The translations under genes and the position numbers were made by a program. The notes beneath the pieces are model-generated. The model was not told where the DNA came from. It searched no databases and saw nothing but the letters and a program-made list of their open reading frames with translations. This document shows, one piece after another, positions 2,882 through 29,324 of a stretch of DNA of 64,000 bases. How positions within the stretch are numbered: position 1 is the stretch's first letter; each line of letters opens with the position of its first letter. Source of the DNA: Aquiflexum balticum DSM 16537 (GTDB lineage: Bacteria; Bacteroidota; Bacteroidia; Cytophagales; Cyclobacteriaceae); the NCBI RefSeq assembly GCF_900176595.1, contig NZ_LT838813.1, forward strand, positions 3,614,001 to 3,678,000. The letters run 5' to 3'.

Positions 2882-2899
2882 ATACTACTTTTGGGGTAT
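2882..2899. promoter_or_regulatory. Shared inverted repeat ATAC-N10-GTAT, copy 1
   Basis: ATAC TACTTTTGGG GTAT, followed by TTT, 54 bp before the ATG of the small outer-membrane barrel at 2953. The same 18-bp pattern recurs upstream of four other units in this window. The core TACTTTTG also fits the Bacteroidota -7 consensus TAnnTTTG, so a promoter role is an alternative to an operator. Confidence 0.55.
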
Positions 2900-2952
2900 T
2901 TTGATTGACTTGCCGAGTGACTAGTTTAGCATTACATCAAACCATATTCACC

Positions 2953-3576
2953 ATGAAGAAAGTTATTTTTATTGTTTTAGTTGCGGTCGGATTTCAGGTC
3001 GCTCCGGCTTATTCCCAATTTGGTATTCAAGCCGGTCCTGTTGGCACCTTGGGTGAAGCATTCGAAACAGCCGATGGGTTAGACAAACTGGGGGGAACGA
3101 TCGGCTTCACATTCGGTGCTTTTTACAACGTAGCACTTACGAAAAACATAGCGATTCAGCCTTCGGTCAATTATCTGAACAGACGTTGGGGTGATGAACT
3201 AGAAGATTTGGATACTGGTGATATCACCAATACTTCCATGTCGATCAATTACCTCGAAATTCCAGTCCAACTGGTATATCATAGTGAGGAGGAAACGGGG
3301 GTGTTTGCCGGCATCGGTCCCTCCCTGATGTATGGTTTATCTGGAAAGAGGACTGTTGACTTCAATGGCAACAGAACCTCAACTGATTATGAATTTGGGA
3401 GTGGAGCAAATCAGGAGTCTCCCATGACTATAGGATTTAACCTGATGTTTGGCTATGATTTCGGAAAGATTTTGATGGGATTGAATTACGGTAGTGGTCT
3501 AACAAACCAAGCCACCGACAATCGGGATCAGGGAAACGGAAGCCACCTGGCACTTAGAGTGGGGTACACATTTTAG
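2953..3576 (+). CDS. Outer-membrane beta-barrel protein (PorT/OMP_b-brl_2-like)
   Basis: A 207-residue protein. The start is placed at the ATG before the signal peptide (MKKVIFIVLVAVGFQVAPAYSQ) rather than at an earlier in-frame start, which would put 16 polar residues ahead of it. The mature part alternates amphipathic strands and glycine turns: FGIQAGPVGTLGEAF, IGFTFGAFYNVALTKNIAIQPSVNYL, INYLEIPVQLVYH, GVFAGIGPSLMYG, IGFNLMFGYDFG. It ends in an aromatic residue (RVGYTF), typical of outer-membrane barrels. The pattern resembles the small porin-like barrels common in Bacteroidota. It stands alone, with motif copy 1 upstream and an intrinsic terminator downstream. The substrate or role is unknown. 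Confidence 0.85.
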   Translation: MKKVIFIVLVAVGFQVAPAYSQFGIQAGPVGTLGEAFETADGLDKLGGTIGFTFGAFYNVALTKNIAIQPSVNYLNRRWGDELEDLDTGDITNTSMSINYLEIPVQLVYHSEEETGVFAGIGPSLMYGLSGKRTVDFNGNRTSTDYEFGSGANQESPMTIGFNLMFGYDFGKILMGLNYGSGLTNQATDNRDQGNGSHLALRVGYTF

Positions 3577-3652
3577 TGATTCGAAAGAAATAGCGAAGTC
3601 CTCAAGGGCCGCATCATCAAACAGTAATCCCTCATTCTACATAACCCTAAAA

Positions 3653-3681
3653 CCTTCCCGAATCCGGGACGGTTTTTTTTT
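3653..3681 (+). terminator. Intrinsic terminator of the small barrel gene
   Basis: CCTTCCCG, loop AATC, CGGGACGG, then nine Ts, about 75 bp after the stop codon at 3576. Confidence 0.8.
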
Positions 3682-3728
3682 GAACAAGGCACCATGGCAC
3701 ATAGTTAAATGTACCTATAAAGGCAGTT

Positions 3729-3746
3729 TTACTACTTTTGGGGTAT
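3729..3746. promoter_or_regulatory. Shared inverted repeat, copy 2
   Basis: TTAC TACTTTTGGG GTAT, one base different from copies 1 and 5 in the left half-site. It sits 70 bp before the ATG of the 14-codon leader-like peptide at 3816. Confidence 0.5.
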
Positions 3747-3815
3747 TTTAAGCATTAAGCAAAATTATGAAATTTAACTCAGAAAAATTTTAACCTAAAA
3801 ACAAATCATAAAATC

Positions 3816-3860
3816 ATGAAGACCTTGGACTTAAACACTTATGTATTTACGCGACTGTAG
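3816..3860 (+). CDS. Possible 14-residue leader-like peptide (MKTLDLNTYVFTRL)
   Basis: A short open frame, MKTLDLNTYVFTRL and stop, 70 bp after motif copy 2. The opening MKTLDLN.Y resembles, from memory, the start of Bacteroidota double-glycine-leader peptides, but there is no GG site and no core. The TAG stop lies in the loop/stem of the hairpin at 3851-3870. A second frame (about 3818-3933) stays open and ends FLKYPFDFDDYQAVCEYFGINP, but it lacks an ATG, so a frameshifted peptide gene is possible. It could be a truncated peptide precursor, an attenuator leader or chance. Confidence 0.3.
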   Translation: MKTLDLNTYVFTRL

Positions 3861-3870
3861 GTCGCTTTTT
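3851..3870 (+). terminator. Hairpin terminator overlapping the short peptide's stop codon
   Basis: GCGAC, loop TGTAG, GTCGC, then TTTTT: a perfect 5-bp stem with a U-tract. The peptide's TAG is in the loop, so translation to the stop codon would cover the left arm. This geometry is known from attenuators; regulation is inferred. Confidence 0.55.
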
Positions 3871-3962
3871 AAAATACCCTTTTGATTTTGATGATTACCA
3901 AGCCGTCTGCGAGTACTTCGGGATTAACCCTTAATTCATTCTTCGTATGTTTTTTTAAGAGT

Positions 3963-3986
3963 CATCCAGTTTGGGTGGTTTTTTTT
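3963..3986 (+). terminator. Possible second terminator after the leader-like region
   Basis: CATCC, loop AGTTT, GGGTG with one G-T pair, then G and eight Ts. It would end transcripts that read through the hairpin at 3851. Between the two hairpins only the ATG-less frame ending at 3933 is present. Confidence 0.45.
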
Positions 3987-4002
3987 GAGTTTTAGTCAAG
4001 AT

Positions 4003-4077
4003 CCAAGTTTAGAGCCAAGAGCCAAGAGCCAAGAACCAAGAGACAAGAGACAAGAAGCGAGATGCGAGAAGCGAGAG
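4003..4077. repeat. Degenerate AGCCAAG/ACAAGA short tandem repeat
   Basis: About ten head-to-tail copies of a 7-8 base unit drifting from GAGCCAA to GAGACAA to GAAGCGA. The apparent 62-codon frame through it is a repeat artefact. Related units in the opposite orientation (TCTTGAG/TCTTGCG) occur at about 13,640-13,700, and TCTCGGT units at about 4350-4370. Confidence 0.75.
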
Positions 4078-4154
4078 GTTGGAAACCAGAAGGGAGATGC
4101 GAGAGGTTGGAAACAAATAGCTTTTCCTGAAGACTACAATTGGCAGGTTTTCAG

Positions 4155-4290
4155 AGTTTCATGCAGATCATGATTCCTTAGGGGCATCTCCTGAGGTATG
4201 GGAGATTCTTCGCCTTAGCAAGCTGCGGCTCTGAATGACGAGGAACCTGATATCATAACCCTTTTTGTAAATTCCAATTTTGAAAACTCG
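4155..4290. repeat. Dispersed intergenic element, copy 1
   Basis: Contains TTTCATGCAGATCATG, GGCATCTCC, GGGAGATTCTTCG, GGCTCTGAATGACG and then TTTGTAAATTCCAATTTTG in that order. The same series is found at 31,183-31,360 and 43,075-43,300. The element carries no reading frame. The rest of 4078-4417 holds no gene that I can see. Confidence 0.6.
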
Positions 4291-6819: not shown

Positions 6820-7563
6820 TCATCGGATATTTTTTAAGAATTCATCCTTTCTCCTTCTGGACACATCCACATAGCTTCCATCCTCCATTTTCACTTGGCC
6901 GCCCTCCCCTTTGAGGTATTCTTTGATATATGCCAAATTGATCAAATGACTGTTGTGCACCCGGAAAAAACCCTGCTCCAAAAGCATCTGTTCACATTCC
7001 TTCAGGGTTTTGGATACAATGATGGTTTTTTTGTCAATCAGGTGAAATGTGGTATAAGTATTGTCCGATTCGCATCGGATAATGTCCTCGATTGGCACAA
7101 AAAGATATCCGGATAGGGTAGGGAGGGCAACCTTCTTTTTTGGGATGGATTTATGGAGATTGTTCAGTAATTCCTGCACATGGTCTAAGTTGTCTCCCTT
7201 TTGCATTTTCGACCGGAATTTTTCCAATGCCTGATCCAATTCAGTTTCTATCAAGGGTTTTAGCAAGTAGTCCACTGCTGCCAGGCGAAAAGCACGGGTA
7301 GCATAGGTATCGTAAGAAGTGGTAAATATGATAGAAAATGGGATGCTTTCGAATCCCGACAACCAATCAAAAGCATTGCCCGGTGGAAGGTCCACATCAC
7401 AAAAAACCAGGTCCGGTTCCTCCTTTGATACCAAATTGGAAGCATCTTCCAAATTGAAAGCCTGGCCAACTAACTGTAAATCAGGATATTTTTCCAGCAA
7501 TGCTTTCAATTGACTTTGGGCAGCTGCTTCGTCTTCTATGATAATGACCTTGTATTTTTTCAT
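6820..7563 (-). CDS. LytTR-family response regulator
   Basis: 247 residues. The receiver domain (about 1-120) has the acidic pair ED at 10-11, phosphoacceptor Asp56 (FCDVDLP), the Thr of FTTSYDTYATRAF and the Lys of DYLLKPL. A LytTR DNA-binding domain fills about 140-245 (VPIEDIIRCESDNTYTTFHL, FFRVHNSHLINLAYIKEY). Members bind DNA as dimers after phosphorylation by LytS/YehU-type kinases. The partner kinase is encoded immediately upstream: its stop codon ends 2 bp before this ATG, so the two are translated from one mRNA. Targets are not evident from the sequence. LytTR sites are normally direct repeats, so the ATAC-N10-GTAT motif is not an obvious match. Confidence 0.93.
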   Translation of the reverse strand: MKKYKVIIIEDEAAAQSQLKALLEKYPDLQLVGQAFNLEDASNLVSKEEPDLVFCDVDLPPGNAFDWLSGFESIPFSIIFTTSYDTYATRAFRLAAVDYLLKPLIETELDQALEKFRSKMQKGDNLDHVQELLNNLHKSIPKKKVALPTLSGYLFVPIEDIIRCESDNTYTTFHLIDKKTIIVSKTLKECEQMLLEQGFFRVHNSHLINLAYIKEYLKGEGGQVKMEDGSYVDVSRRRKDEFLKNIR

Positions 7564-7565
7564 AG

Positions 7566-8420
7566 CTAATCTTCAAAAGGTATTCTAATCTGCAGGACTT
7601 TCCCTGGAATCCCGTCTTTTCTCTCTTCAAGCCTGTATCCTGATTTATTGTTGTTTATTTGGTTGAGCAAATCAAATCGTTCCTGCATCAACTGCATCCC
7701 CAAGGAAGTCTTTTTGACCTGATGACTGAGATTTATTTCTTTTTCTACAGGCTTACTATTGGTCTTTTCATCCTTGATTTCGCATAACAAATGATTGTCA
7801 TCCGCTTGTGTAATCACCATATCAATTTTCCCACCTCCGGATACCCCATGCCAAACTGCGTTTTCCAAAAAAGGCTGAATCAGCATGGGGGGTATATAGA
7901 TGGTATCCGGGTCCAGGCCATTTTCAACAGTAATGGAAAAATCAAAAGTGTGATTCAGGCGTAACTGCTCGAGTTCCAGATAAATCCTATTGGCCTCCAA
8001 TTCATCTGATAGGGGGACTGTTTTTCGCTCACTGCTTTCAAGGACATAGCGGATTTGTTGGGAGAACTTCAATAAATATTGCCCGGCTTCATTGACAGGA
8101 TGGCTGTACATATAATGATGAATCGAATTCAAGCAATTGAAGATAAAATGGGGATTGATTTGGGCTTTGAGAGCTTTGAGGGTTACTTCGGTTTTTTGAA
8201 GCAATAATTCTGTTTCCTTTTCTTTTATGATTGCTTCTCTTTTTGAGCGGTAAAAGACAAAAATCACAAAGGTAAAAGCCAACATCACCGGGATAAGGGC
8301 AAAAAGTATCAGGGTTTTGATTTCGGAATTACTTTGGATTTGTAAAATCTTAAAGGCAGCCAAAGTGGAATAAAATTTATTTCCGTTCAAAAAAATACCT
8401 AGAAGAACTGCTTTTGCCAT
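7566..8420 (-). CDS. LytS/YehU-type sensor histidine kinase
   Basis: 284 residues. One membrane segment (about 36-57, LILFALIPVMLAFTFVIFVFY) is followed by a helical linker and the His_kinase domain with phosphoacceptor His91 in ALKAQINPHFIFNCLNSIHHY. A HATPase-like part follows (IPPMLIQPFLENAVWHG; LGMQLMQERFDLL). It is short for the family: relatives usually carry a periplasmic sensor, TPR or 7TM region before the membrane segment, and here only 35 residues precede it. An in-frame TAA directly before the ATG excludes a longer start, so the input is either membrane-internal or supplied by another protein. It is translationally adjacent to the LytTR regulator. Confidence 0.92.
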   Translation of the reverse strand: MAKAVLLGIFLNGNKFYSTLAAFKILQIQSNSEIKTLILFALIPVMLAFTFVIFVFYRSKREAIIKEKETELLLQKTEVTLKALKAQINPHFIFNCLNSIHHYMYSHPVNEAGQYLLKFSQQIRYVLESSERKTVPLSDELEANRIYLELEQLRLNHTFDFSITVENGLDPDTIYIPPMLIQPFLENAVWHGVSGGGKIDMVITQADDNHLLCEIKDEKTNSKPVEKEINLSHQVKKTSLGMQLMQERFDLLNQINNNKSGYRLEERKDGIPGKVLQIRIPFED

Positions 8421-9593: not shown

Positions 9594-10265
9594 ATGTCAA
9601 AGAAAGTGAAGGATAGCAATAAAATACAACAAGTTGTTATTGTTGACGATCATGAAATTTTTGCCATCGGGCTCAAACATATCCTGGAAATTAATCTGGG
9701 AATTAAAGCCGGTTTGCATTTTTCTTGTGCCCAAGCCGCTTTGAACTATTTCAAAAATGGAGGGGGGGCAGACCTTGTGATATTGGAACTGTACATATCG
9801 GAGATGAACAGTTTTAATTTCTTGGAACAGGTCAAAATCTTATTGCCAAAAATCAACATTCTAGTATTCAGCATGCAGCAATCAAATTTCAATATTTCAC
9901 TTTGCAAAAAACTTGGAGTCACGGGTTTTGTCAGGAAAAACACTTATCTCAAAGATTTCCTCCAAGCCATTGAGGAAGTGCAGATGGGCAAGAAATACTT
10001 CCCGGAATTCGAAGACGAAAAAGCATCCGAGGAATTGATCAATAATTCTGTGGAAAGGATCTGTCAGCAATACAGACTTTCCCGCTCGGAAATCAAGATT
10101 TTGGATAAGTTTTTGGAACAGAAAAAATATCGGGAAATTGCCGATGAACTCTGTTTAAGCCCGCAGACTGTCCGGACCCACAAGAGGAATATTTACCGCA
10201 AGTTTGGGGTGCGCAATATGGCGGGAATAGTAGGTCTGCTAAAGTTGGAATTGGAAAGAGGGTAG
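9594..10265 (+). CDS. NarL/FixJ-type response regulator with Glu at the phosphoacceptor position
   Basis: 223 residues from the ATG at 9594; a longer in-frame start would add 25 residues derived from the duplicated fragment. The receiver region (about 13-130) keeps the acidic pair Asp18-Asp19 (VVIVDDHE), the Ser of FSMQQSN and the Lys of GFVRKNT. The acceptor position is Glu65 (ADLVILELYISEMN) instead of Asp, so normal phosphotransfer is unlikely. A LuxR-type HTH follows (LSRSEIKILDKFLEQKKYREIADELCLSPQTVRTH, split here: LSRSEIKIL... and SPQTVRTHKRNIYRKFGV). No partner kinase lies beside it. Glu may mimic the phosphorylated state, or activity may be set by expression. It converges on the M43 protease gene. 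Confidence 0.85.
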   Translation: MSKKVKDSNKIQQVVIVDDHEIFAIGLKHILEINLGIKAGLHFSCAQAALNYFKNGGGADLVILELYISEMNSFNFLEQVKILLPKINILVFSMQQSNFNISLCKKLGVTGFVRKNTYLKDFLQAIEEVQMGKKYFPEFEDEKASEELINNSVERICQQYRLSRSEIKILDKFLEQKKYREIADELCLSPQTVRTHKRNIYRKFGVRNMAGIVGLLKLELERG

Positions 10266-10396: not shown

Positions 10397-12496
10397 TTAA
10401 TGACTGTGAAATCTTCTTCCAAAATGATTGAGATGGGCACAGGCCACGGGTTTGATGCTGGGATCGAGTTTTCCTCTTTCAAAGGGCTTCAGTCTTGCAT
10501 TCAAATAATTGCTTTCTTTTGCGAAGAATGGATTATAAACCGCTATGGTCCTCATTCTTTCTCTTTGGTCATAAGTAAAGCTGTTGTCATTGACCAGATA
10601 GTCCATGATATTTGCCGAGTAAAAAGTTTGATTTTCACAATTTTTTAGAATGTTGACCGTACTCAAGCCTGTTGGTACAACTAAATGGGTTTCTGTATCC
10701 GGACAAAAATCCCCATCGATACACTGATTACTTGGGAACATATCCCCAAAGGGATGGTATAAGCCCAACATATGTCCGATTTCATGGGCTAAGGTAGTAT
10801 TGCTTGGAAGCCCCATTACAAAGTCGGCTATTACAGTGGAATACGGAAAACTCAATTCATACCAATCATCTATCTTATCAATTCCGTCTAAATCTCTATC
10901 TTTAATAATGGGTAAATAAGCATATCCTGCGGGCCTATCCATCCTGCCCACAAAGACATTCACAAACTTTCTCGGGTCCCAAATATTTTTAAAAAGAAAT
11001 CCCATTTCTTTTGAAGGAGTATTATTGAAAGTCAGTCCTCCGCTTGGGATTCTGTTAATGCCTTTTTCCTGTAGCGGATTTCCAAATTCATCCATTTCTA
11101 CCAAGAAAAATTCAATAAAGCTATTCACCGAATTACTGCTTCTTGGTATTGCTGATTCCGGCTGAAATTCATTTGCAAAGGCCTTGTTTAATTTTTCAAG
11201 TTCGAAATCAACTGTTGCCCTGTTTATTTCATTTTCGAGATTATCCAAGACATGAAATATGATAGGAACCCGGACTTTTTGTAAGACCTGGTTTTGCCGT
11301 GAAATGATCTGTATGGTATTACTTTTCTTACCTGAGATTTCAGCGTGTACATTTACTGTCCCAGCTTTATTGATGGGGATATTTTTAAATGAATCCTGTT
11401 TTTGTCCGTCCACTACCAAGGTGGCCGGGATAGTCAGGACAGCGTTGTCCATCCCGATAACCTCATAGGTGAAATCCAGTTCCGAAGAGCCGGCCACAGC
11501 ATAAACATTCCTAGTTCTTTCATCCAAAATGAGGTCTATGCTTTTGATATAAGTCATTGGGTCAAACACTTCCAAATCCACAGAATTACTAAAAACCTGA
11601 CCGACTGCCGCCCTTAATTTAAACTTGCCATCAGGAAGTTGATTGATGTTGAAATCAGACAAATTCACTTCATTATATTCCAAGGTATAAATGCCGGGGT
11701 AAGATTTTAAGTCTATTAATTCAGAATTTTTCAACCTTGCATTGATGGCAATAAAATCAGTTAATAAACCCTGAGTTTCTGCCTTATTGATTTGGGAAAT
11801 GTTATCTAAAGGTTTTAACTCTATTTCTTCTACAGCATCCTTTATGGTTAAAACCTCAAAGTCTAAAGCATTGCTGATGATATTATTTATACTAATTTGT
11901 ATTGAAGCATCTTCACCAGTTTCAAAATCCCTTACCTGAAAACTATCTGAGCTTGCTCCATTCAATACATATTTAAAATCAAAAAAGCTTTGATTGACGA
12001 CCAACTTTTCCCCGGTTAAAAGACTCACTTCAATCTTAAACAAATCATCAAAGCTTGGATCCTCCAATTCCGGTATCAGGACATTGGATACTCCTTTTAA
12101 TTCCAGTTTGATGGCTGTAATGGCATTGATAATGGACAAAACCCGGATATTCAATGCATTGCTTTGGATTTTGGACTTGTTTGGGAATTCTGCCTGAAGG
12201 GTATAATTCGATTCTTGACTCAGGTCGATTTCTGTATTCTCCACCTCATTTCCATTGAGATACAATTTAGGCTTAAGAGTATTCTTTAAATTCACTTCTT
12301 CCTGTTTGGAAAAATACCTCAAGAGATATTTCACCTCATAGGTACCCTCTTTTTTTAGAAACAGGGTATCACCCGAAATCAGTTTTACCTCAGTGATACT
12401 GTCCATCAATAAGGAGCCTTCCTCAAAATTGTCCACCATGCAGGAATTGAACAAGAGAAAATAGGAGCATAAAAGAATAAGAAAACGGTTTTTCAT
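10397..12496 (-). CDS. M43 (cytophagalysin/pappalysin-like) metalloprotease lipoprotein
   Basis: 699 residues. A signal with lipobox FNSC puts the lipidated Cys at residue 19. Residues of about 30-400 form several beta-sandwich repeats of roughly 95 residues (for example LNIRVLSIINAITAIKLELK, LDFEVLTIKDAVEEIELKPL), probably surface spacers. The C-terminal catalytic domain (about 405-680) has the zinc signature HEIGHMLGLYH and a downstream Met-turn (SANIMDYL), with Cys pairs typical of M43 (NQCIDGDFCPDTETH). Secreted M43 enzymes cleave extracellular proteins. It follows the 210-residue barrel gene by 3 bp, so both are driven from the region carrying motif copy 3. The metalloprotease assignment is firm; the substrate is unknown. 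Confidence 0.92.
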   Translation of the reverse strand: MKNRFLILLCSYFLLFNSCMVDNFEEGSLLMDSITEVKLISGDTLFLKKEGTYEVKYLLRYFSKQEEVNLKNTLKPKLYLNGNEVENTEIDLSQESNYTLQAEFPNKSKIQSNALNIRVLSIINAITAIKLELKGVSNVLIPELEDPSFDDLFKIEVSLLTGEKLVVNQSFFDFKYVLNGASSDSFQVRDFETGEDASIQISINNIISNALDFEVLTIKDAVEEIELKPLDNISQINKAETQGLLTDFIAINARLKNSELIDLKSYPGIYTLEYNEVNLSDFNINQLPDGKFKLRAAVGQVFSNSVDLEVFDPMTYIKSIDLILDERTRNVYAVAGSSELDFTYEVIGMDNAVLTIPATLVVDGQKQDSFKNIPINKAGTVNVHAEISGKKSNTIQIISRQNQVLQKVRVPIIFHVLDNLENEINRATVDFELEKLNKAFANEFQPESAIPRSSNSVNSFIEFFLVEMDEFGNPLQEKGINRIPSGGLTFNNTPSKEMGFLFKNIWDPRKFVNVFVGRMDRPAGYAYLPIIKDRDLDGIDKIDDWYELSFPYSTVIADFVMGLPSNTTLAHEIGHMLGLYHPFGDMFPSNQCIDGDFCPDTETHLVVPTGLSTVNILKNCENQTFYSANIMDYLVNDNSFTYDQRERMRTIAVYNPFFAKESNYLNARLKPFERGKLDPSIKPVACAHLNHFGRRFHSH

Positions 12497-12499
12497 TTT

Positions 12500-13132
12500 T
12501 TAAAATGCGATTATAAATGACATACTGCGCAGGGTATTACTTGAAACAGCATTGGGATAAAATTCTACCAGGGCATTGTACAGCCTCAACTCCAATAAGG
12601 TCCGGTTTAAATATACCCCGGCCCCAACAATCCAACCTGCCTGAAAATGGTTGAATTCATCAAAGGGATAGGCGATTTCAGTTCCATTGATTTCAGTTTG
12701 TGACTTGGAGTGGATATGGTATTGGGCATATCCACCCAAAGAAAGGGTAGGCTTAAATTTGGATTTGGTTTTCAGCACGACCGGGAAAAAATCCATTCCC
12801 GCCACATGGTTGGTAAAAGCAGTTTTCACATCCACATTATCGGCCACATACCTGTTTTGGATTTGTTGAAACAGGTAATAGGGCTCGATCCGCATGCTGT
12901 TATAGGGGCTGATGGGAATATGAAAGACCGGACCGGTACTGAATCCCAACTTATACTCACTGTCAATATCAAAATACCCCAAGGAATTGTTAAAATTGAT
13001 ATAATTGGCATGTACAGCCACTCTCCATTTGGTATTGGATTTTTTCTTAGGTGCTACAATGGTGCTGTCCATTTGTGAAAAAGCATTGCCTGAAAGGAAC
13101 ACCAAAACCAAAATTTTAAATAAAAGCTTCAT
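12500..13132 (-). CDS. Outer-membrane beta-barrel protein
   Basis: 210 residues with a signal peptide (MKLLFKILVLVFLSGNAFSQ). Amphipathic strands follow (WRVAVHANYINF, YKLGFSTGPVFHIPI, MRIEPYYLFQQIQN, HVAGMDFFPVVLKTK, PTLSLGGYAQYHIHS, AGWIVGAGVYLNRTLLELRLY), ending in MSFIIAF with an aromatic last residue. Probably an eight- to ten-strand barrel. It is the first gene of a two-gene operon with the M43 protease (3-bp gap) and carries motif copy 3 about 100 bp upstream. The pairing suggests that the barrel supports or partners the surface protease; this is inference from position only. Confidence 0.85.
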   Translation of the reverse strand: MKLLFKILVLVFLSGNAFSQMDSTIVAPKKKSNTKWRVAVHANYINFNNSLGYFDIDSEYKLGFSTGPVFHIPISPYNSMRIEPYYLFQQIQNRYVADNVDVKTAFTNHVAGMDFFPVVLKTKSKFKPTLSLGGYAQYHIHSKSQTEINGTEIAYPFDEFNHFQAGWIVGAGVYLNRTLLELRLYNALVEFYPNAVSSNTLRSMSFIIAF

Positions 13133-13230
13133 ATTTTACCCTATAAAAATTTCTAACAGATTGTTAATTTATAAAGTCGGCTCCTTGAAAAGAATTTTTT
13201 TCAACAAATAATATTCGTTTAAATACTAAA

Positions 13231-13248
13231 ATACCGCAAATGGGGTAG
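13231..13248. promoter_or_regulatory. Shared inverted repeat, copy 3
   Basis: ATAC CGCAAATGGG GTAG, about 100 bp upstream of the barrel/protease operon. On the minus strand it reads CTACCCCATTTGCGGTAT. The right half-site has one mismatch. Confidence 0.5.
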
Positions 13249-13847
13249 GTTTTTTGGGGGATTGTGGAAGATTGTAGATTCTTTGGAAGAATTTAGGTAA
13301 AAAAAGTTGTCATGGTTATCAGGTTGTAATGGTTATCATAGTTGTTATAGTTGTTGGGTTCATTTATCAATCCATCCAACCTACACCAGCTACTCAAAAA
13401 AGCTTCCCTTTGTCACCTCACTGCCCAAGACATGCGTGGAAACAAGGAGGTAACTGTTTATAAATAAACGAATTATCGGCTTTATTACCCTATATCCATC
13501 TTACACTGTTTGTTCAACCCTGCCTTCCGTCAGGCAGGCCCTTCAAGGTTGATCGGACCATAAAAAAATATCTTATCCTTTACTCCACATTTCATAAGGG
13601 CTATTAAAAAGTTCAACTTCGTGGTTTTTGCTTATACTCAAGTCTTGAATCTCGAATCTTGTGTCTTGAGTCTTGCGTCTTGTGTCTAATCTCTCGCATC
13701 TGACCAAACTCCTCAATGTTTCACCCCCCCCCAAAAAAAAATCCCCCTTTCGACCTCCCCCTTCCTCCCTCTTTCCCCTTCGTAAATACCAAAAAATAGG
13801 TATTGAAATACAAAATATTTACTTCAAACTGCTTTATAAAATCAAAA
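13249..13847. other. Non-coding divergent intergenic region with repeats
   Basis: Separates the protease operon from the 2,692-residue gene. It holds TTATCA/GTTGT short repeats at about 13,305-13,360, a hairpin at 13,513-13,553 (TTCAACCCTGCC...GGCAGG...GGTTGA) and degenerate TCTTGAG/TCTTGCG tandem units at about 13,640-13,700 followed by C- and A-rich runs. No credible gene. Confidence 0.6.
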
Positions 13848-13865
13848 ATACCGCAAATGGAGTAT
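13848..13865. promoter_or_regulatory. Shared inverted repeat, copy 4 (best palindrome)
   Basis: ATAC CGCAAATGGA GTAT, extended by AAA on the left and TTT on the right, so the perfect arms are AAAATAC and GTATTTT. It lies 127 bp before the ATG of the giant gene at 13,992. Here the TTTG core is on the opposite strand to the gene, which argues for an operator over a plain promoter. Confidence 0.6.
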
Positions 13866-13991
13866 TTTTTTCAAATAAAGCTTTATGCATTTTGCGAGCA
13901 GGGTAAGATACCCTCACGGACAGCCTGTTTTTTGGAGGATGATTTTTGGGAATGCTGTCAGTGCTTGACTTTAAGAACTTAAACAATTTCT

Positions 13992-16900
13992 ATGATGAAA
14001 AGACAACTACTCTTTCTTTTTCTTTCCCTGCTCGCTTTCTTGGCGAGGGCCCAAGACGGCTCCAATGACCTCAGCTTCAACGCCGATAAAATCAACTTTG
14101 GTGATGGGGCAAGCTTCACTGTCCTTACCACCGCGATTCAGCCCAATGGGAAAATTCTGATCGGGGGAGAGTTTGGTTTCTTCAACGGGATTGCTAGAAG
14201 CCGCATTGCCAGGCTGAACGAGGACGGTAGCCTGGATACTTCCTTTAATCCAGGTACGGGGGCAAACCTTCAGGTTCTTACTCTCGCCCTACAGTCCGAC
14301 GGTAAGATCCTGATCGGGGGAGTTTTTTCCCAATACAATGGGGTTGACAGAATTCGGATCGCCCGTCTGAACGCGGACGGGAGCTTGGATACCTCCTTCA
14401 ATCCAGGAACTGGGGCAAACAATATTGTACGGACCCTTGCTGTACAGGCAGACGGTAAGGTCCTGATCACTGGAGATTTCTCCCAATACAACGGGGTTGC
14501 TATCAATCGCATAGCTCGGCTGAATTCAGATGGGAGCCTGGATACCTCCTTCAACCCCGGTACGGGGCCAAACAGCTTCATTTGGACTACCCAGATCCAG
14601 CCAGACGGCAAAATCATCATCGGGGGAGAGTTTGGTGTTTACAACGGGGTTGCCAGAAGCCGCATCGCCCGGCTGAACACCGACGGTACTTTGGATAGTT
14701 CTTTTGATCCAGGTATAGGGCCAGCCGGATTCAATCCTAGAATAAATGCCATGACCCTTCAATCTGATGGAAAGATCATCATCGGTGGTTTTTTCACTTC
14801 CTACAACGGAACAGCGATAAACCGTATCGCCCGTCTGAACGCGGATGGTAGTCTGGAAACTTCCTTCAATCCCGGTACGGGGGCAAACAACTCGATTGTG
14901 ACCACCCAGATCCAGGCGGACGGGAAGATCATCATCGGGGGAGGTTTCACTTCCTACAACGGAACAGCAAGAAACTATATCGCCCGTCTGAACGCGGACG
15001 GCAGCTTGGATACCTCCTTCAATCCCGGTACGGGGGCAAACGGCTCGATTCTGACCATCCAGATCCAGGCGGACGGCAAGATCATTATAGGGGGAGTTTT
15101 CACTTCTTACAACGGAACAGCGAGAAACTATATCGCCCGGCTCAATGCGGACGGTAGCCTCGATACTTCCTTTAATCCTGGTACGGGGACAAACAGCGGG
15201 ATTAATACCACCCAGATCCAGGCGGACGGCAAGATCATTGTAGGGGGAAATTTCACTTCCTACAACGGAACAGCGAGAAACCGTATCGCCCGTCTGAACG
15301 CGGACGGGAGCCTGGATACCTCCTTCAATCCCGGTACAGGGGCAAACAACTGGATTGTGACCACCCAGATCCAGTCGGACGGGAAGATCATTGTAGGGGG
15401 AAATTTCACTTCCTACAACGGAACAGCGATAAACCGTATCGCCCGTCTGAACACGGACGGTAGCCTCGATACTTCCTTTAATCCTGGTACGGGGACAAAC
15501 AGCGGGATTAATACCACCCAGATCCAGGCGGACGGCAAGATCATTGTAGGGGGAAATTTCACTTCCTACAACGGAACAGCGAGAAACCGTATCGCCCGTC
15601 TGAACGCGGACGGGAGCCTGGATACCTCCTTCAATCCCGGTACAGGGGCAAACAACTGGATTGTGACCACCCAGATCCAGTCGGACGGGAAGATCATTGT
15701 AGGGGGAAATTTCACTTCCTACAACGGAACAGCGATAAACCGTATCGCCCGTCTGAACACGGACGGTAGCCTGGATACCTCCTTCAATCCCGGTACGGTG
15801 GCAAACAACTGGATTAGGACCACCCAGATCCAGGCGGACGGCAAGATCATCATCGGGGGACAGTTCACTATAGCGAGAAACTATATCGCCCGTCTGAATG
15901 CGGACGGGAGCCTGGATACCTCATTCAATCCCGGCACGGGGGCAAACAACTCGATTTTCACCACCCAGATCCAGTCGGACGGCAAGATCATCATCGGGGG
16001 ATTTTTCATTTCCTACAACGGAACAACGAGAAACTTTATCGCCCGTCTGAACGCGGACGGGAGCCTGGATACTTCCTTCAATCCCGGAACGGGGGCAAAC
16101 GCCCCGATTAGGACCACCGCGATCCAACCGGACGGCAAGATCATTATAGGGGGAGATTTCATTGGTTATGATGGTGTCAGCCGTGTCAGGATCAACCGGC
16201 TGCTGAATTCTATCCTTCCTCCTCCCGACACAGAGGCCCCGGTTCCGGTCTTAGAAACCCTACCCCCCTTCGAAGCCCAGTGTGTGGTGAACCTCGCAGA
16301 CCTGACCGTCCCCACTGCCACCGACAATGTGGATGGTACCATACAAGGTACGACGGATGAAAGTATATTCCCGATTAGCACGCAGGGCAGTACCCTCATC
16401 ACCTGGACCTATACCGATGCCGCAGGAAACACCACCACCCAGACCCAGGAAATCCTGATCGCGGATACTGAGATTCCCGTGATTGACGAAGTCTTGGCTA
16501 TTTTCCAGTCTACTGATATCGGCAGCTGTGAAGGAATAGTCTCCGTACCTGTTCCAGCAGTAACAGATAACTGTGATACGGGGATCGTTCCTTTTGGTAT
16601 CAGAAGTGACGGACAGCCACTGAATGCTGCCTATCCTATCGGTGCTACAGAAATTACCTGGACAGCCGAAGATGCGGTGGGAAATGTAGCTCTTGCTGTG
16701 ATACAGACCATTAATATCACTGACAATGAAAAGCCTGTTATTGCTCCGGTTGACGGTATCACCCAATCTACAGACGCGGAAATTTGTATCTCCATGATAA
16801 GCATCATTGCTCCGGTAGTCAGCGATAACTGTGGAAGCTTAGTTGCAGTAGGAGTAAGAGCAGATGGTAATAATTTAAATGACCCTTATCCAACCGGAAT

Positions 16901-19900
16901 CACAGAAATTACCTGGACAGCGATAGATGCTTCCGGTAATGCCGCTGATCCGGTCATCCAGACCATCACGGTCAACGATACAGAAGCCCCTGTAATATCG
17001 GCCAACGGCAACCAGACCGTTTCCGCTGATGCAGCAGCATGCAATGCCGTGGTAGTTGTCTCCGCTTCCGCCACCGATAACTGCGCCGTAGGCGAACCGA
17101 CAGGAGTAAGAAGCGACGGCTTGGCCCTGACAGAACCTTATCCTGTGGGCGTAACGACGATCACGTGGACCGTCAGCGATGCCAACGGCAATGCCGCCGC
17201 CCCGGTCATCCAGACCATCACGGTCAACGATACCGAAGCGCCTGTAATTTCGACCAACGGCAACCAGACCGTTTCCGCTGATGCAGGAGCATGCAGCGCT
17301 GTGGTAGTTGTCTCCGCCTCAGCCACCGATAACTGCGCCGTCGGCGAACCAGTTGGCATAAGAAGCGACGGACTTGCCCTGACCGAACCTTATCCCGTGG
17401 GCGTCACGACAATCACCTGGAACGTGAGCGATGCCAACGGCAATGCCGCCGCCCCTGTCATCCAGACTTTCACGGTCAACGATACCGAAGCCGCTGTGAT
17501 CTCGACCAACGGTAACCAGACCGTTTCCGCTGATCCAGCAGCATGCAGCGCCGTGGTATCTATATCCGCTTCCGCCACCGATAACTGCGGTGTAGGCGAA
17601 CCGATTGGAATCAGAAGCGACGGACTTGCCCTGACCGAACCTTATCCCGTGGGCGTCACGACCATCACCTGGAACGTCAGCGATGCCAACGGCAATGCGG
17701 CAGCACCTGTCATCCAGACCATCACGGTCAACGATACCGAAGCGCCTGTGATCTCGACCAACGGCAACCAGACCGTTTCCGCTGATGCAGCAGCATGCAG
17801 CGCCGTGGTAGTTGTTTCCGCCTCAGCCACCGATAACTGCGGCGTAGGCGAACCAACAGGAATCAGAAGCGACGGACTTGCCCTGACCGAGCCTTATCCC
17901 GTGGGCGTCACGACCATCACCTGGAACGTCAGCGATGCCAACGGCAATGCCGCCGCCCCGGTCATCCAGACCATCACGGTCAACGATACCGAAGCGCCTG
18001 TGATCTCAACCAACGGCAACCAGACTGTTTCCGCTGATGCAGCAGCATGCAGCGCCGTGGTAGTTGTTTCCGCCTCAGCCACCGATAACTGCGGCGTAGG
18101 CGAACCAACAGGAATCAGAAGCGACGGACTTGCCCTGACCGAGCCTTATCCCGTGGGCGTCACGACCATCACCTGGAACGTCAGCGATGCCAACGGCAAT
18201 GCGGCAGCACCTGTCATCCAGACCATCACGGTCAACGATACCGAAGCGCCTGTGATCTCAACCAACGGCAACCAGACTGTTTCCGCTGATGCAGCAGCAT
18301 GCAGCGCCGTGGTAGTTGTTTCCGCCTCAGCCACCGATAACTGCGGCGTAGGCGAACCAACAGGAATCAGAAGCGACGGACTTGCCCTGACCGAGCCTTA
18401 TCCCGTGGGCGTCACGACCATCACCTGGAACGTCAGCGATGCCAACGGCAATGCCGCCGCCCCTGTCATCCAGACCATCACGGTCAACGATACCGAAGCG
18501 CCTGTGATCACATGCCCAGCCAATATCAGCACAAACGTAGCCTTTGGCGAGACGGGCAAGGTGGTCAATTACGACCTGCCTGTCGCTTCGGACAACTGTG
18601 GCACGCCAAGCATGCAATTGACGGCCGGCCTTGCCAGCGGTTCGGTATTCCCATTAGGAACTACGACCGTAAGCTATGAGGCCACCGATGCGGCTGGCAA
18701 CAAGACCAGCTGCAGCTTTACGGTGACCATTACAGAAGATGCGGACGCCATTGACCCTGTCATCAACGATTGTCCAACCGACATCACCGTGTCCAACGAT
18801 GCGGGCGACTGCAGCGCAACAGTGACCTGGACTGCTCCGACCGCGACCGACAACAGCGGTTCGGTGACCCTGACCAGCAACTTTGATCCCGGGGCGGTAT
18901 TCCCTGTGGGCACTACCGAAGTGATCTATACCGCCACCGATGCGGCAGGCAATCAGGCAACCTGCAGCTTCAACGTGACCGTAACGGACAGCGAAGCCCC
19001 TGCCATCACCTGCCCTGCAAATATCACTACCAATGTGGCCTTTGGCGAGACGGGCAAGGTGGTCAATTACGACCTGCCTGTCGCTTCGGACAACTGCGGC
19101 ACACCAGGCATACAATTGACGGCCGGCCTTGCCAGCGGCGCAGTCTTCCCGTTGGGAACCACGACCGTAAGCTATGAGGCCACCGATGCGGCAGGCAACA
19201 AGACCAGCTGCAGCTTTACGGTGACCATTACAGAAGATGCGGACGCCATTGACCCTGTCATCAACGATTGTCCAACCGACATCACCGTGTCCAACGATGC
19301 GGGCGACTGCAGCGCAACAGTGACCTGGACTGCTCCGACCGCGACCGACAACAGCGGTTCGGTGACCCTGACCAGCAACTTTGATCCCGGGGCGGTATTC
19401 CCTGTGGGCACTACCGAAGTGATCTACACCGCCACCGATGCGGCAGGCAATCAGGCAACCTGCAGCTTCAATGTGACCGTAACGGACAGCGAAGCCCCTG
19501 CCATCACCTGCCCTGCGAATATCACTACCAATGTGGCCTTCGGCGAGACCGGCAAGGTGGTCAATTACGACCTGCCTGTCGCTTCGGACAACTGCGGCAC
19601 GCCAACCCTACAACTGACGGCCGGGCTTGCCAGCGGCGCAGTCTTCCCATTGGGAACCACGACCGTAAGCTATGAGGCCACCGACGCGGCAGGCAACAAG
19701 ACCAGCTGCAGCTTTACGGTGACCATCAGCGAAGATGCGGACGCCATTGACCCTGTTATCAACGATTGTCCTACAGACATCACCGTATCCAACGATGCGG
19801 GGGACTGCAGCGCAACAGTGACCTGGACTGCTCCGACCGCGACCGACAACAGCGGTTCGGTGACGCTGACCAGCAACTTTGAACCGGGTGCGGTATTCCC

Positions 19901-22070
19901 TGTGGGCACTACCGAAGTGATCTACACCGCCACCGATGCGGCAGGCAATCAGGCAACCTGCAGCTTCAATGTGACCGTAACGGACAGCGAAGCCCCTGCC
20001 ATCACCTGCCCTGCGAATATCACTACCAATGTGGCCTTCGGCGAGACCGGCAAGGTGGTCAATTACGACCTTCCAATCGCTTCGGACAACTGCGGCACGC
20101 CAGACATACAATTGACGGCCGGCCTTGCCAGCGGTTCGGTATTCCCGTTGGGAACCACGACCGTAAGCTATGAGGCCACCGATGCGGCAGGCAACAAGAC
20201 CAGCTGCAGCTTTACGGTGACCATTACAGAAGATGCGGACGCCATTGACCCTGTCATCAACGATTGTCCAACCGACATCACCGTGTCCAACGATGCGGGC
20301 GAATGCAGTGCAGCGGTAATCTGGACTGCTCCGACCGCGACCGACAACAGCGGTTCGGTGACCCTGACCAGCAACTTTGAACCGGGTGCGGTATTCCCTG
20401 TGGGCACTACCGAAGTGATCTATACTGCCACCGATGCGGCAGGCAATCAGGCAACCTGCAGCTTCAATGTGACCGTTACGGATAATGAATTACCGGTGAT
20501 CAATCCGGTTGCCGATATCACGGTAAACATACCGTCCACAGAATCCAGTGCCAATGTTAATGTGGTAACACCTTCGGCTTCCGACAACTGCGGTTCGGCC
20601 ACGGTTACAGGCGTAAGAAATGACGGAAGGCCATTGACTGATTCCTATCCAGTTGGAGAGACCACCATCACATGGTCTGCGGTGGATGCTTCAGGTAACC
20701 TGGCCGTTGACGTGCTGCAAAAAGTGATTGTAAACCAGGTAAGCACCAACCAAAGAGTTGTGCGGTTTGTGTTGGTCAATGCGGGAACAAACCAAGACCT
20801 GTTTGAGCTCACCGAGGGCATGCAGATCAGCGAAAGCCTTGTGCAGGGCTTGAGGCTGAACGTAAGAGCGGAAACGGACCCGGCTATTGTGGGCAGTGTA
20901 TTTATGAGGCTCACAGGTGCAGTCAATGCTTCAAGGACCGAAAACGTAGCGCCTTATGCGCTCTTCGGGGACAACAACGGGAACTACAGCGGAAGGATGT
21001 TGCCAACAGGCAATTACACCATGTATTCTATGCCGTTTACCCAAAGCAGCAGAAGAGGTACGGCCGGGGATCCATTGACGGTCAACTTCAGCATCGTTGG
21101 ATCTGTAGTCCCTGTGACGGGGATTACTGTAAGCCCATCGACAGCTACTATAGAAGTGGGCAACAACGTGCAGTTGACCGCGACCGTATCACCATCGAAT
21201 GCCACCAATAAAGCCGTGACCTGGAGCAGTTCCAACGGATCTGTTGCATCAGTCAACTCCAATGGTCTGGTGACGGGCAATGCCGTGGGCCAGGCAGTGA
21301 TAACTGCGACCACAGTGGACGGAGGTTTCATGGCTTCTGCTACCATCACCGTGGAATCGGTTCCGAACCTAGGTATCGTTTCATTCACCTTGATCAATTC
21401 GGCGAATAACCAGGATATGTTCGAACTCACCGATGGCATGGTCATCGACGAAAGCCAGACCAGTGGCCTCAGGTTGAATATCCGGGCCAATACCAATCCT
21501 ACAATCGTCGGAAGTGTTTATTTCACGCTTTCCGGTCCGGTAAACCGCGATGCAACTGAAAATGTGACTCCATACGCCATATTCGGAGATAAAAACGGCA
21601 ACTATTCAGGAAGGACATTGCCAGCGGGAACCTATACGCTATCAGCACAAGCCTATTCAGATAGGAACAGAAGAGGTACAGCAGGCCCAATCAAAACCAT
21701 CACCTTTACGATCAATAGCAATGTGGTAAGGTTGGAAGACGGACAGTTATCCGATAAGAATGGCAATAACTCTGAAACCAACCGTGGCGGAATGGAAGGC
21801 CAATCTCCTGAAATCATGACGGGGTCTTTGAAAATCTATCCTAATCCTGCCAAAACGGAATCCAATATTCTGATTCAGCTTTCTGCAGAATCGGAAGTGA
21901 CCATCCGCATCTTTGATGCTACAGGCAGGTTGGTTTATGAGGAACAGGGAAGACAATCCGGTACTTTCACGAGAAACCTTGACCTGAGAGGTCTAAGTTC
22001 GGGCATGTACCATGTGGTGGTTCAGATCGACAACAAGGTACTCACAGGAAGATTGGTAAGAGACCTGTAG
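13992..22070 (+). CDS. Giant T9SS-exported protein: delta-60 repeats, HYR-type domains, Big_2, type A sorting domain
   Basis: 2,692 residues. A signal peptide (MMKRQLLFLFLSLLAFLARAQ) is followed by 14 delta-60/DUF5122 repeats of about 51 residues at about 22-735 (DGSLDTSFNPGTGAN...DGKIIIGGxFTSYNG...RIARLN), which would form beta-propeller(s). Then come three divergent HYR-like domains (about 740-995), six nearly identical 84-residue copies (996-1499), four 166-residue pairs of HYR domains (1500-2163) and one more. A domain of about 115 residues (VVRFVLVNAGTNQDLFELTEG) occurs twice, flanking a Big_2 domain (TGITVSPSTATIEVGNNVQL). The last 80 residues (YPNPAKTESNILIQLS...LSSGMYHVVV) are a T9SS type A signal. 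Probably a surface adhesin. The repeats are GC-richer than the flanking DNA. Motif copy 4 lies upstream and a strong terminator downstream. Confidence 0.93.
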   Translation: MMKRQLLFLFLSLLAFLARAQDGSNDLSFNADKINFGDGASFTVLTTAIQPNGKILIGGEFGFFNGIARSRIARLNEDGSLDTSFNPGTGANLQVLTLALQSDGKILIGGVFSQYNGVDRIRIARLNADGSLDTSFNPGTGANNIVRTLAVQADGKVLITGDFSQYNGVAINRIARLNSDGSLDTSFNPGTGPNSFIWTTQIQPDGKIIIGGEFGVYNGVARSRIARLNTDGTLDSSFDPGIGPAGFNPRINAMTLQSDGKIIIGGFFTSYNGTAINRIARLNADGSLETSFNPGTGANNSIVTTQIQADGKIIIGGGFTSYNGTARNYIARLNADGSLDTSFNPGTGANGSILTIQIQADGKIIIGGVFTSYNGTARNYIARLNADGSLDTSFNPGTGTNSGINTTQIQADGKIIVGGNFTSYNGTARNRIARLNADGSLDTSFNPGTGANNWIVTTQIQSDGKIIVGGNFTSYNGTAINRIARLNTDGSLDTSFNPGTGTNSGINTTQIQADGKIIVGGNFTSYNGTARNRIARLNADGSLDTSFNPGTGANNWIVTTQIQSDGKIIVGGNFTSYNGTAINRIARLNTDGSLDTSFNPGTVANNWIRTTQIQADGKIIIGGQFTIARNYIARLNADGSLDTSFNPGTGANNSIFTTQIQSDGKIIIGGFFISYNGTTRNFIARLNADGSLDTSFNPGTGANAPIRTTAIQPDGKIIIGGDFIGYDGVSRVRINRLLNSILPPPDTEAPVPVLETLPPFEAQCVVNLADLTVPTATDNVDGTIQGTTDESIFPISTQGSTLITWTYTDAAGNTTTQTQEILIADTEIPVIDEVLAIFQSTDIGSCEGIVSVPVPAVTDNCDTGIVPFGIRSDGQPLNAAYPIGATEITWTAEDAVGNVALAVIQTINITDNEKPVIAPVDGITQSTDAEICISMISIIAPVVSDNCGSLVAVGVRADGNNLNDPYPTGITEITWTAIDASGNAADPVIQTITVNDTEAPVISANGNQTVSADAAACNAVVVVSASATDNCAVGEPTGVRSDGLALTEPYPVGVTTITWTVSDANGNAAAPVIQTITVNDTEAPVISTNGNQTVSADAGACSAVVVVSASATDNCAVGEPVGIRSDGLALTEPYPVGVTTITWNVSDANGNAAAPVIQTFTVNDTEAAVISTNGNQTVSADPAACSAVVSISASATDNCGVGEPIGIRSDGLALTEPYPVGVTTITWNVSDANGNAAAPVIQTITVNDTEAPVISTNGNQTVSADAAACSAVVVVSASATDNCGVGEPTGIRSDGLALTEPYPVGVTTITWNVSDANGNAAAPVIQTITVNDTEAPVISTNGNQTVSADAAACSAVVVVSASATDNCGVGEPTGIRSDGLALTEPYPVGVTTITWNVSDANGNAAAPVIQTITVNDTEAPVISTNGNQTVSADAAACSAVVVVSASATDNCGVGEPTGIRSDGLALTEPYPVGVTTITWNVSDANGNAAAPVIQTITVNDTEAPVITCPANISTNVAFGETGKVVNYDLPVASDNCGTPSMQLTAGLASGSVFPLGTTTVSYEATDAAGNKTSCSFTVTITEDADAIDPVINDCPTDITVSNDAGDCSATVTWTAPTATDNSGSVTLTSNFDPGAVFPVGTTEVIYTATDAAGNQATCSFNVTVTDSEAPAITCPANITTNVAFGETGKVVNYDLPVASDNCGTPGIQLTAGLASGAVFPLGTTTVSYEATDAAGNKTSCSFTVTITEDADAIDPVINDCPTDITVSNDAGDCSATVTWTAPTATDNSGSVTLTSNFDPGAVFPVGTTEVIYTATDAAGNQATCSFNVTVTDSEAPAITCPANITTNVAFGETGKVVNYDLPVASDNCGTPTLQLTAGLASGAVFPLGTTTVSYEATDAAGNKTSCSFTVTISEDADAIDPVINDCPTDITVSNDAGDCSATVTWTAPTATDNSGSVTLTSNFEPGAVFPVGTTEVIYTATDAAGNQATCSFNVTVTDSEAPAITCPANITTNVAFGETGKVVNYDLPIASDNCGTPDIQLTAGLASGSVFPLGTTTVSYEATDAAGNKTSCSFTVTITEDADAIDPVINDCPTDITVSNDAGECSAAVIWTAPTATDNSGSVTLTSNFEPGAVFPVGTTEVIYTATDAAGNQATCSFNVTVTDNELPVINPVADITVNIPSTESSANVNVVTPSASDNCGSATVTGVRNDGRPLTDSYPVGETTITWSAVDASGNLAVDVLQKVIVNQVSTNQRVVRFVLVNAGTNQDLFELTEGMQISESLVQGLRLNVRAETDPAIVGSVFMRLTGAVNASRTENVAPYALFGDNNGNYSGRMLPTGNYTMYSMPFTQSSRRGTAGDPLTVNFSIVGSVVPVTGITVSPSTATIEVGNNVQLTATVSPSNATNKAVTWSSSNGSVASVNSNGLVTGNAVGQAVITATTVDGGFMASATITVESVPNLGIVSFTLINSANNQDMFELTDGMVIDESQTSGLRLNIRANTNPTIVGSVYFTLSGPVNRDATENVTPYAIFGDKNGNYSGRTLPAGTYTLSAQAYSDRNRRGTAGPIKTITFTINSNVVRLEDGQLSDKNGNNSETNRGGMEGQSPEIMTGSLKIYPNPAKTESNILIQLSAESEVTIRIFDATGRLVYEEQGRQSGTFTRNLDLRGLSSGMYHVVVQIDNKVLTGRLVRDL
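15150..15761 (+). repeat. Two adjacent near-identical 306-bp blocks (delta-60 repeats 8-9 and 10-11)
   Basis: Positions 15150 and 15456 start blocks that are almost base-for-base the same, each encoding two delta-60 units (TGTNSGINTTQIQADG and TGANNWIVTTQIQSDG). Repeat 12, just downstream, lacks five residues (FTIARNY for FTSYNGTARNY). This indicates very recent in-frame duplication and slippage. Confidence 0.85.
16977..18488 (+). repeat. Six tandem 252-bp HYR-type units
   Basis: Units start at 16977, 17229, 17481, 17733, 17985 and 18237. The last three are nearly identical in DNA. Each encodes DTEAPVIS.NGNQTVSADA through NAAAPVIQTITVN. Stop-free antisense frames recur with the same period and are artefacts of the repeat. 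Confidence 0.9.
18489..20480 (+). repeat. Four tandem 498-bp units, each two HYR domains
   Basis: Units start at 18489, 18987, 19485 and 19983. Each encodes one domain starting CPANI.TNVAFGETGKVVNY and one starting DPVINDCPTDITVSNDAG. The exact 498-bp spacing and high identity indicate recent amplification or gene conversion. Confidence 0.9.
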
Positions 22071-29096: not shown

Positions 29097-29124
29097 CAGT
29101 TTATAGCTTCAAATAAATTTACAG

Positions 29125-29160
29125 CCCCTTCCGGAGAGATCCGGAGGGGGTTGTTTTTTT
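29125..29160 (+). terminator. Intrinsic terminator of the 1,885-residue gene
   Basis: CCCCTTCCGG, loop AGAGAT, CCGGAGGGG, then a U-tract. The sequence and spacing from the stop codon parallel the terminator at 22,096. Confidence 0.85.
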
Positions 29161-29164
29161 GGGG

Positions 29165-29212
29165 AATTGGAAGAACTTGTTGGCCTAGGCGGATTGGAAG
29201 TACATGTCCGCC
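29165..29212. repeat. Dispersed ATTGGAAGAACTTGT unit pair
   Basis: ATTGGAAGAACTTG, TTGGCCTAGGCGG, then ATTGGAAGTACATGTCCGCC. Same family as 6295-6410 and 22,134-22,169, again directly after a terminator. Confidence 0.6.
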
Positions 29213-29268
29213 GATATTGACTACATTTTGGATGAGCCACAGATCAACCGCCATTTGGGTGTTGAGTT
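29213..29268 (-). pseudogene. Fragment of a paralogue of the 224-residue membrane protein
   Basis: The minus strand reads LNTQMAVDLWLIQNVVNI, aligned to LNTQIATDLWFIQNVVNI of the gene at 4418-5092 (bases 4529-4584). Homology ends sharply on both sides, and on one side joins the dispersed repeat. Confidence 0.75.
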
Positions 29269-29306
29269 GGCAATGTTCAATGGGTTGAGTGTCACTGTTT
29301 TAATTT

Positions 29307-29324
29307 ATACTACTTTTGGGGTAT
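29307..29324. promoter_or_regulatory. Shared inverted repeat, copy 5
   Basis: ATAC TACTTTTGGG GTAT, identical over 18 bp to copy 1, 79 bp before the ATG at 29,403. TACTTTTG fits TAnnTTTG. Confidence 0.55.

Follow-up and report, generated by a model that had tools for sequence, protein, structure and literature searches.

Genes and palindromes of the window

The window considered here is a stretch of 64,000 nucleotides, positions 3,614,001-3,678,000 of a 5,987,095-bp single-contig genome (G000); seven-digit positions below refer to the genome and shorter ones to the window. Domain scans reveal a small outer-membrane barrel protein (OMP_b-brl_2; 2953..3576, plus strand), a LytTR response regulator (6820..7563, minus strand) adjoining a His_kinase-type sensor kinase (7566..8420, minus strand), an orphan NarL/GerE response regulator with receiver and GerE domains (RR3; 9594..10265, plus strand), a minus-strand operon whose first gene encodes another outer-membrane barrel protein (12500..13132) and which carries a Peptidase_M43 protein (10397..12496), a 2,692-residue secreted protein with HYR repeats and a Por_Secre_tail domain (the T9SS gene; 13992..22070, plus strand), and a Big_2-domain protein read as a lipoprotein from its start (29403..31046, plus strand). 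At the left edge, a gene read as a Reg_prop-like ligand sensor (window 1-2727, minus strand) is split into two frames of 197 aa and 944 aa (to 3613182), and its counterpart in a related genome (G026), at the same palindrome, is a single 1,179-aa frame. An open frame of ~6,370 codons starts at the other end of the window (47357-64000) and runs on to genome position 3680466. A search of the window against Rfam found nothing above the gathering thresholds.

The exact palindrome ATAC-N10-GTAT occurs four times in the window (2882, 13786, 13848 and 29307), against a mean of 0.57 and a maximum of 3 in 100 shuffles. An earlier note on this DNA had listed five such copies; those at 2882, 13848 and 29307 are exact, those at 3729 (which starts TTAC) and 13231 (which ends GTAG) are each one base off, and the exact copy at 13786 was missing from its list. 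The 10-base spacing that it described is kept in all five listed copies, and so is a common core, as all five fit TAC(T/C)NC(T/A)TTTG(G/C)GGTATTTT when oriented alike, copies 3 and 4 (13231 and 13848) having the consensus orientation on the minus strand. Its range of 50-130 bp to a start codon is also approximately correct (51, 76, 96 and 124 bp for copies 1, 5, 3 and 4, respectively). The longer form AAATAC-N10-GTATTT is exact, within the window, in copy 4 only.

Copy 1 (TTATACTACTTTTGGGGTATTT; 2880..2901, plus strand) lies 51 bp upstream of the start codon of the small barrel gene at 2953, and 20 bp beyond it (+20) stands a -7-like box, TAGTTTAG (2922..2929, plus strand), with one mismatch. 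Copy 2 (3727..3748, plus strand), one base off ATAC, is followed at +20 by the box GAAATTTA (3769..3776, plus strand) with no mismatch, and copy 5 (TTATACTACTTTTGGGGTATTT; 29305..29326, plus strand), 76 bp upstream of the lipoprotein start, by a weak box, TAGATTAC (29347..29354, plus strand), with two mismatches. No +20 box accompanies copy 3 (ACCTACCCCATTTGCGGTATTT on the minus strand; 13229..13250), which faces the M43 operon, the extra exact copy (AAATACCAAAAAATAGGTATTG; 13784..13805, plus strand) or, on either side, copy 4 (AAATACCGCAAATGGAGTATTT; 13846..13867, plus strand), 124 bp upstream of the T9SS gene.

What had been taken for a leader-like peptide after copy 2 is instead the relic of a collagen-like lipoprotein gene (3816..3934, plus strand), of which the start (3816-3860) and the end (3872-3934) are kept and the middle is gone. 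Its start (MKTLDLNTYVFTRL) and its end (DDYQAVCEYFGINP) resemble those of intact paralogues at genome positions 3611085-3612941, immediately left of the window, the first of which was domain-scanned. Because the start of the peptide and the end of the next frame are both lipoprotein-like, copy 2 can be read as the promoter of another lipoprotein gene that has lost its middle.

Genomic distribution and the local cluster

The earlier note had proposed a genome-wide scan, and the copies prove to be clustered. The full consensus occurs at six exact and three one-mismatch places, with none for the reversed control, and seven of the nine places fall inside 3608373-3643327 (~35 kb of the 5.99-Mb genome); a rough bound on the chance of such clustering is 2e-12. 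The bare ATAC-N10-GTAT is weakly specific (122 places versus 82 for the reversed control), and the short core TACTTTTGGGGTAT is found at five places genome-wide, four in the cluster and one isolated at 5920747 without the arms.

To the left of the window, sites at 3603193 and 3603477, the latter without a +20 box, lie between HK1, a kinase, and a T9SS-signal-domain protein of 1,233 aa that is followed by PorP/SprF. A further site (3608370) stands 32 bp upstream of the kinase HK2 and, after it, the regulator RR2, while another (3610995) lies directly 3' of RR2 and 68 bp upstream of the three collagen-like lipoprotein genes. According to domain scans, HK1 and HK2 combine 7TMR-DISM and HisKA_3 domains, and RR1, RR2 and RR3 combine a receiver with a GerE domain; RR2 also matches full-length structures of VraR and NarL. 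Of 14 GerE matches in the genome, three (3600403, 3610801 and 3624077) fall within the 43 kb that hold both the regulators and the sites (3600370-3643327), and the eleven GerE neighbourhoods outside the cluster contain a single site, at 1799828. The box that follows the HK2 operator stops four bases short of the annotated ATG, in G000 and in the same-genus genome G001 alike, which suggests that the HK2 transcript may be nearly leaderless.

Relatives carrying the local site

The comparison with related genomes, a step that the earlier note had suggested, covered 15 stretches around HK2-like kinases in 13 genomes, and in it the palindrome recurs at matching genes, namely the sensor-kinase operon, the collagen-like lipoproteins and the small barrel. 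Palindromes with outer TAC and GTA, at most three arm mismatches and a facing gene are present in 10 of the 15 stretches (eight genomes) and absent from five (L117 of G079, L123 of G045, L124 of G073, a stretch of only 3.6 kb, L127 of G082 and L129 of G084). In G079, HK2 and RR2 counterparts are 53% and 56% identical, yet the stretch holds no such site.

A site lies 28-38 bp upstream of the kinase start in G001, G113 (two kinases), G099, G028 and G023, the arms having two mismatches in G099, G028 and G023; the kinase site is accompanied by the +20 box in G001, G099 and G028 and at one of the two G113 kinases. In G120, G125 and G026 a site is near the HK2 orthologue and not directly before it. 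Collagen-like lipoprotein genes are preceded by sites in G001, G120 and G026, and G026 has the same site (L119:854) upstream of the orthologous barrel gene. RR2-like genes are found in the related stretches, in G001 a second set of sites (L151) lies some 5 kb away from a further RR2-like gene, and the orthologues of RR3 in G113, G125 and G073 adjoin HK2-like kinases.

Fixed spacing to the promoter box

Applied across 12 stretches, the rule given above yields 45 local site-gene pairs from 33 sites. A box of the form KAnnTTTR, with at most one mismatch, is found exactly at +20 in 23 of the 45 pairs, against 0-4 at every other spacing from 8 to 44. This form was picked after the local sites had been viewed; TAnnTTTG with one mismatch gives 13 at +20 versus 0-3 elsewhere. 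A wider set of 113 site-gene pairs from eight genomes, which represents the dispersed class described below and has three pairs (L151) in common with the local set, behaves alike: KAnnTTTR with at most one mismatch is present at +20 in 66 pairs and in 1-9 at every other spacing from 10 to 39, and the exact TAnnTTTG, a count independent of the earlier choice of form, in 20 pairs and in at most 2 at any other spacing. When similar flanks are dropped, 38 of 84 pairs keep the +20 box, the background rate being 4.4%. At the 73 sites flanked by a gene on a single side, the box lies on that side in 50 and on the other in 8.

The TAnnTTTG box of Flavobacterium psychrophilum occupies -12 to -5 in the available part of the report (PMC9723704). 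If the box at these sites is assumed to hold the same position, the palindrome would span about -54 to -33, with its centre near -43.5. Such a location just upstream of the core promoter fits that of an activator, with the start-site position taken from the same source. As the box is separate from the palindrome, and as E. coli NarL activates from -44.5, the palindrome is a predicted activator operator rather than the -7 element itself.

A dispersed class, partly upstream of defence genes

The long form AAATAC-N10-GTATTT occurs 29 times in the own genome versus 2 in the control, mostly outside the cluster, and many copies have a core like C(C/G)T(G/A)(A/T)(A/T)CA. This dispersed operator class, part of which stands before defence genes, is the larger find of this investigation. 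In a search of 148 family genomes, dispersed site counts reach 32, and the cores, as read from genomes whose sites were readable, are host-specific: AAATACC(A/T)ACTAGT(A/T)GGTATTT types in G107, mostly CCCTGTACAGGG types in G043, GATC-centred cores in G127 and G034, CCCA-NN-TGGG types in G047 and two cores in G095.

Ten of the 33 places that score over 14 in the own genome face, or lead a gene run with, a member of a defence family (AAA/AriA-like, restriction-type helicase, Cas_TM1802, CD-NTase, Schlafen/AlbA_2, CAP12-type TIR, PDC-M30A twice, Cas6b and a weak 'cll' match), and six of these ten have the +20 box on that side; from the 33 places, 20 proteins were run against Pfam and 10 against PADLOC. 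The class includes sites upstream of CRISPR, CBASS, TIR and restriction genes. At the remaining places, what is faced is a peptidyl-prolyl isomerase or a polysaccharide export operon (both read from sequence), an amidohydrolase, a DUF389 protein, a protein of unknown function, or no gene at all. PDC-M30A, which is presumably TcmP-like, is preceded by a site in G000, G047 and G127 (four members) and Cas6 in G000 and G107, and in each case the core is of the host type.

Sixty-six target proteins matched 216 PADLOC models, compared with 140 models for 66 proteins encoded elsewhere in the own genome (including DpdF helicase-type and reverse-transcriptase matches) and 38 for 66 proteins of the same stretches more than 3 kb from a site; these figures count models and not the members matched, and so provide no clean enrichment test. 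Among hand-picked proteins scanned singly, 16 of 20 match at 1e-10.

One G095 stretch (L191; G095:C1:901000-920500) has six identical operators in a tandem array of units that share one strand and mostly hold a single gene. The array contains a 370-aa SIR2-like gene and its neighbour in two copies, and adjoins genes resembling an IS91-type transposase and a tyrosine recombinase.

A candidate regulator of the dispersed class

A small LytTR protein (137 aa, PF04397, no receiver domain) is encoded last in a run of three genes, for a 93-aa protein, a PAS protein and LytTR. With a threshold below 1e-40, placed at a visible gap in the match list, orthologues are found in 36 of the 148 family genomes. 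At least six sites are present in 33 of the 36 genomes with an orthologue versus 9 of the 112 without one, the latter led by G059 (12), G111 (10) and G073 (10), and the median site counts are 12.5 and 2, respectively (Mann-Whitney p = 1.8e-17, uncorrected for phylogeny). The 93-aa gene is matched in 14 of 36 LytTR stretches (those of G000 and G001 and 34 others), and in 10 of these a site with the host core and a +20 box with at most one mismatch lies upstream of it, G129, G078, G127 and G047 being the exceptions. In six of the ten (G000, G001, G026, G125, G113 and G095) the PAS gene is followed by a co-oriented LytTR gene; between the two, the remaining four (G096, G043, G021 and G039) have a ~520-aa gene on the opposite strand, so LytTR autoregulation is not read there.

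Taken together, the chances that this LytTR protein is the regulator of the dispersed class are judged to be slightly under even. Residue covariation between LytTR proteins and cores gives a clade-wise pattern only. AgrA, itself a LytTR protein, binds direct repeats with their centre near -60 in the accessible portion of its description (PMC4227749), and the direct-repeat half-sites expected from it are absent from the dispersed sites, which are inverted repeats near -43.5; an inverted LytTR site would therefore be unusual. The absence of a receiver domain is a further difference from AgrA. The likeness to LytTR/AgrA systems lies in the tracking of the class with a LytTR protein that, in six genomes, ends a gene run headed by a site. 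GerE genes do not discriminate in this respect, since each of the 24 palindrome-rich genomes tested has them. Another candidate regulator of the class, a PAS-LuxR-like protein (2792408), was rejected, as it is matched below 1e-60 in only 6 of the 148 genomes, the own genome included, and its best match in the same-genus G001 is 1.0e-9.

A broader proposal can be offered only tentatively. The receiver-less LytTR protein might be the activator of a genome-wide regulon throughout the family, a single switch common to exopolysaccharide and envelope genes and to defence genes of the CRISPR, CBASS, TIR, restriction and other kinds. The operator core would have changed between genera, a given defence cassette having the core type of whichever host it now resides in, and the surface-protein sites of the window would form a second branch of this operator architecture, run by NarL-type regulators.

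A probable activator of the local sites

On sequence grounds, a transcription activator very probably binds at the palindrome, and the NarL/GerE response regulators of its own cluster are reasonably good candidates for that activator. The motif itself, its clustering, its recurrence in relatives and its fixed spacing are observed directly; the binding protein, activation rather than repression, and the signal are inferred. The operator comprises two inverted 7-base half-sites 2 bp apart (TACNNNN-NN-NNNNGTA, within AAA...TTT arms), although its outer bases were presupposed by the search pattern. The NarL half-site reads TACYYMT. E. coli NarL binds such 7-2-7 inverted repeats; one improved site at -44.5 activates ogt, and at yeaR-yoaG a single NarL site just upstream of the -35 element suffices, as stated in the part of the source at hand (PMC7419079). 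The local sites resemble these operators in their inverted heptamers 2 bp apart and in the NarL/GerE regulators encoded beside them, and differ in the Bacteroidota promoter box, the extended AAA/TTT arms, the surface-protein targets and the predicted nature of the binding. The NarL-like layout and the adjoining NarL-type regulators make the local sites candidate operators of RR1-RR3, autoregulated via HK2-RR2. This linkage comprises the three GerE regulators of the cluster and the RR2-like genes of related stretches, but 5 of the 15 related stretches have the genes without the site, and to pass from the layout to the identity of the binding protein would be a matter of analogy.

The mechanism would run from a membrane signal through a kinase to a phosphorylated regulator, with RR2 and HK2 (whose own promoter has the site), RR1 and HK1, or the orphan RR3 as candidates. 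Bound at about -54 to -33, the regulator would replace the -33 element and, when phosphorylated, recruit RNA polymerase to lipoprotein genes, the barrel, the T9SS protein with its PorP/SprF partner, and the kinase-regulator operon itself. The earlier suggestion of a surface-protein regulon with the palindrome as its operator can thus be retained in the form of an activator site of a local cluster, with two amendments: the regulon also includes its own two-component system, and the copies at 13231 and 13848 have no facing +20 box.

The dispersed class has the same arms and spacing but tracks a LytTR protein, and so the architecture is insufficient to identify a GerE regulator. It is conceivable, if unlikely, that a LytTR-type regulator occupies the local sites, either that at 6820-7563, the second candidate regulator of the cluster, or the small protein of the dispersed class. 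The shared arms and +20 spacing, the co-occurrence of the small LytTR protein with palindrome-rich genomes, the presence of a LytTR response regulator and kinase inside the cluster and an 85% identical homologue of that regulator in one palindrome-bearing G120 stretch (L116) are consistent with such binding. Nevertheless, L116 is the only one of the 15 HK2-like stretches in which the window LytTR regulator is matched, G028 and G099 have local-type sites without a small LytTR orthologue at the threshold used, and against the own-genome matrix for the dispersed class the local cores mostly obtain low scores, although two of the eight reach 21-27. The direct repeats bound by AgrA, as far as its published account was available (PMC4227749), also argue against a LytTR protein here.

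That the sites are instead repressor operators overlapping the promoter appears improbable. A repressor at -54 to -33 could obstruct the polymerase, and known regulators of defence genes such as BrxR do repress, in the excerpt available (PMC9122601); however, a repressor requires no exact spacing, and a constant 20 bp across many genes and genomes suits an activator that touches the polymerase. The earlier note had given as its main alternative a specialised promoter in which the core itself, TACTTTTG, is the -7 element. This now seems very unlikely: TACTTTTG is present in copies 1, 2 and 5, but the core TAnnTTTG is absent from copies 3 and 4 and from the HK2 copy, and in relatives its TA becomes TC or TG (TCCTTTTG in G001 and G120, TGCTTTTG in G026) while the palindrome and the separate box recurring at +20 are kept. 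Least probable of all is that the palindromes, the dispersed ones above all, are recombination or insertion sites of mobile cassettes or bidirectional terminators; cores are similar within one genome, six identical sites head the tandem array of single-gene units in G095, and genes read as an IS91-like transposase and a tyrosine recombinase adjoin sites in G000 and G095, but the box lies preferentially on the gene side (50 versus 8 of 73 single-facing sites), 30 of the 33 places in the own genome face a gene within 700 bp, and the two central bases vary freely in G047, unlike a crossover region.

Implications

To our knowledge, few regulators of this phylum have a known operator. With an activator operator of the kind favoured here, the palindrome and its fixed 20-bp spacing to a -7 box would allow activator-dependent promoters to be read directly from sequence. 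The dispersed class points to one activator acting on several anti-phage systems of a genome that are unrelated to one another; if so, this common control would make it testable when and why bacteria turn on their defences together. A literature search of titles and abstracts, with subscription papers mostly outside its reach, found no description of this operator or of a LytTR regulon of defence genes. BrxR (PMC9122601) and RptR (PMC12255303) likewise control transcription of anti-phage genes via repeated DNA sites, RptR binding a 6-bp palindrome in the island promoter; in the parts of these reports that were available, both are repressors of one defence island, whereas here one core is spread over scattered loci with activator-like spacing.

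A palindrome also occurs in the convergent gap between ~984-aa and 485-aa genes in three genomes (L148:4960 in G001, L166:4684 in G107 and L173:4729 in G043), with no facing start codon.
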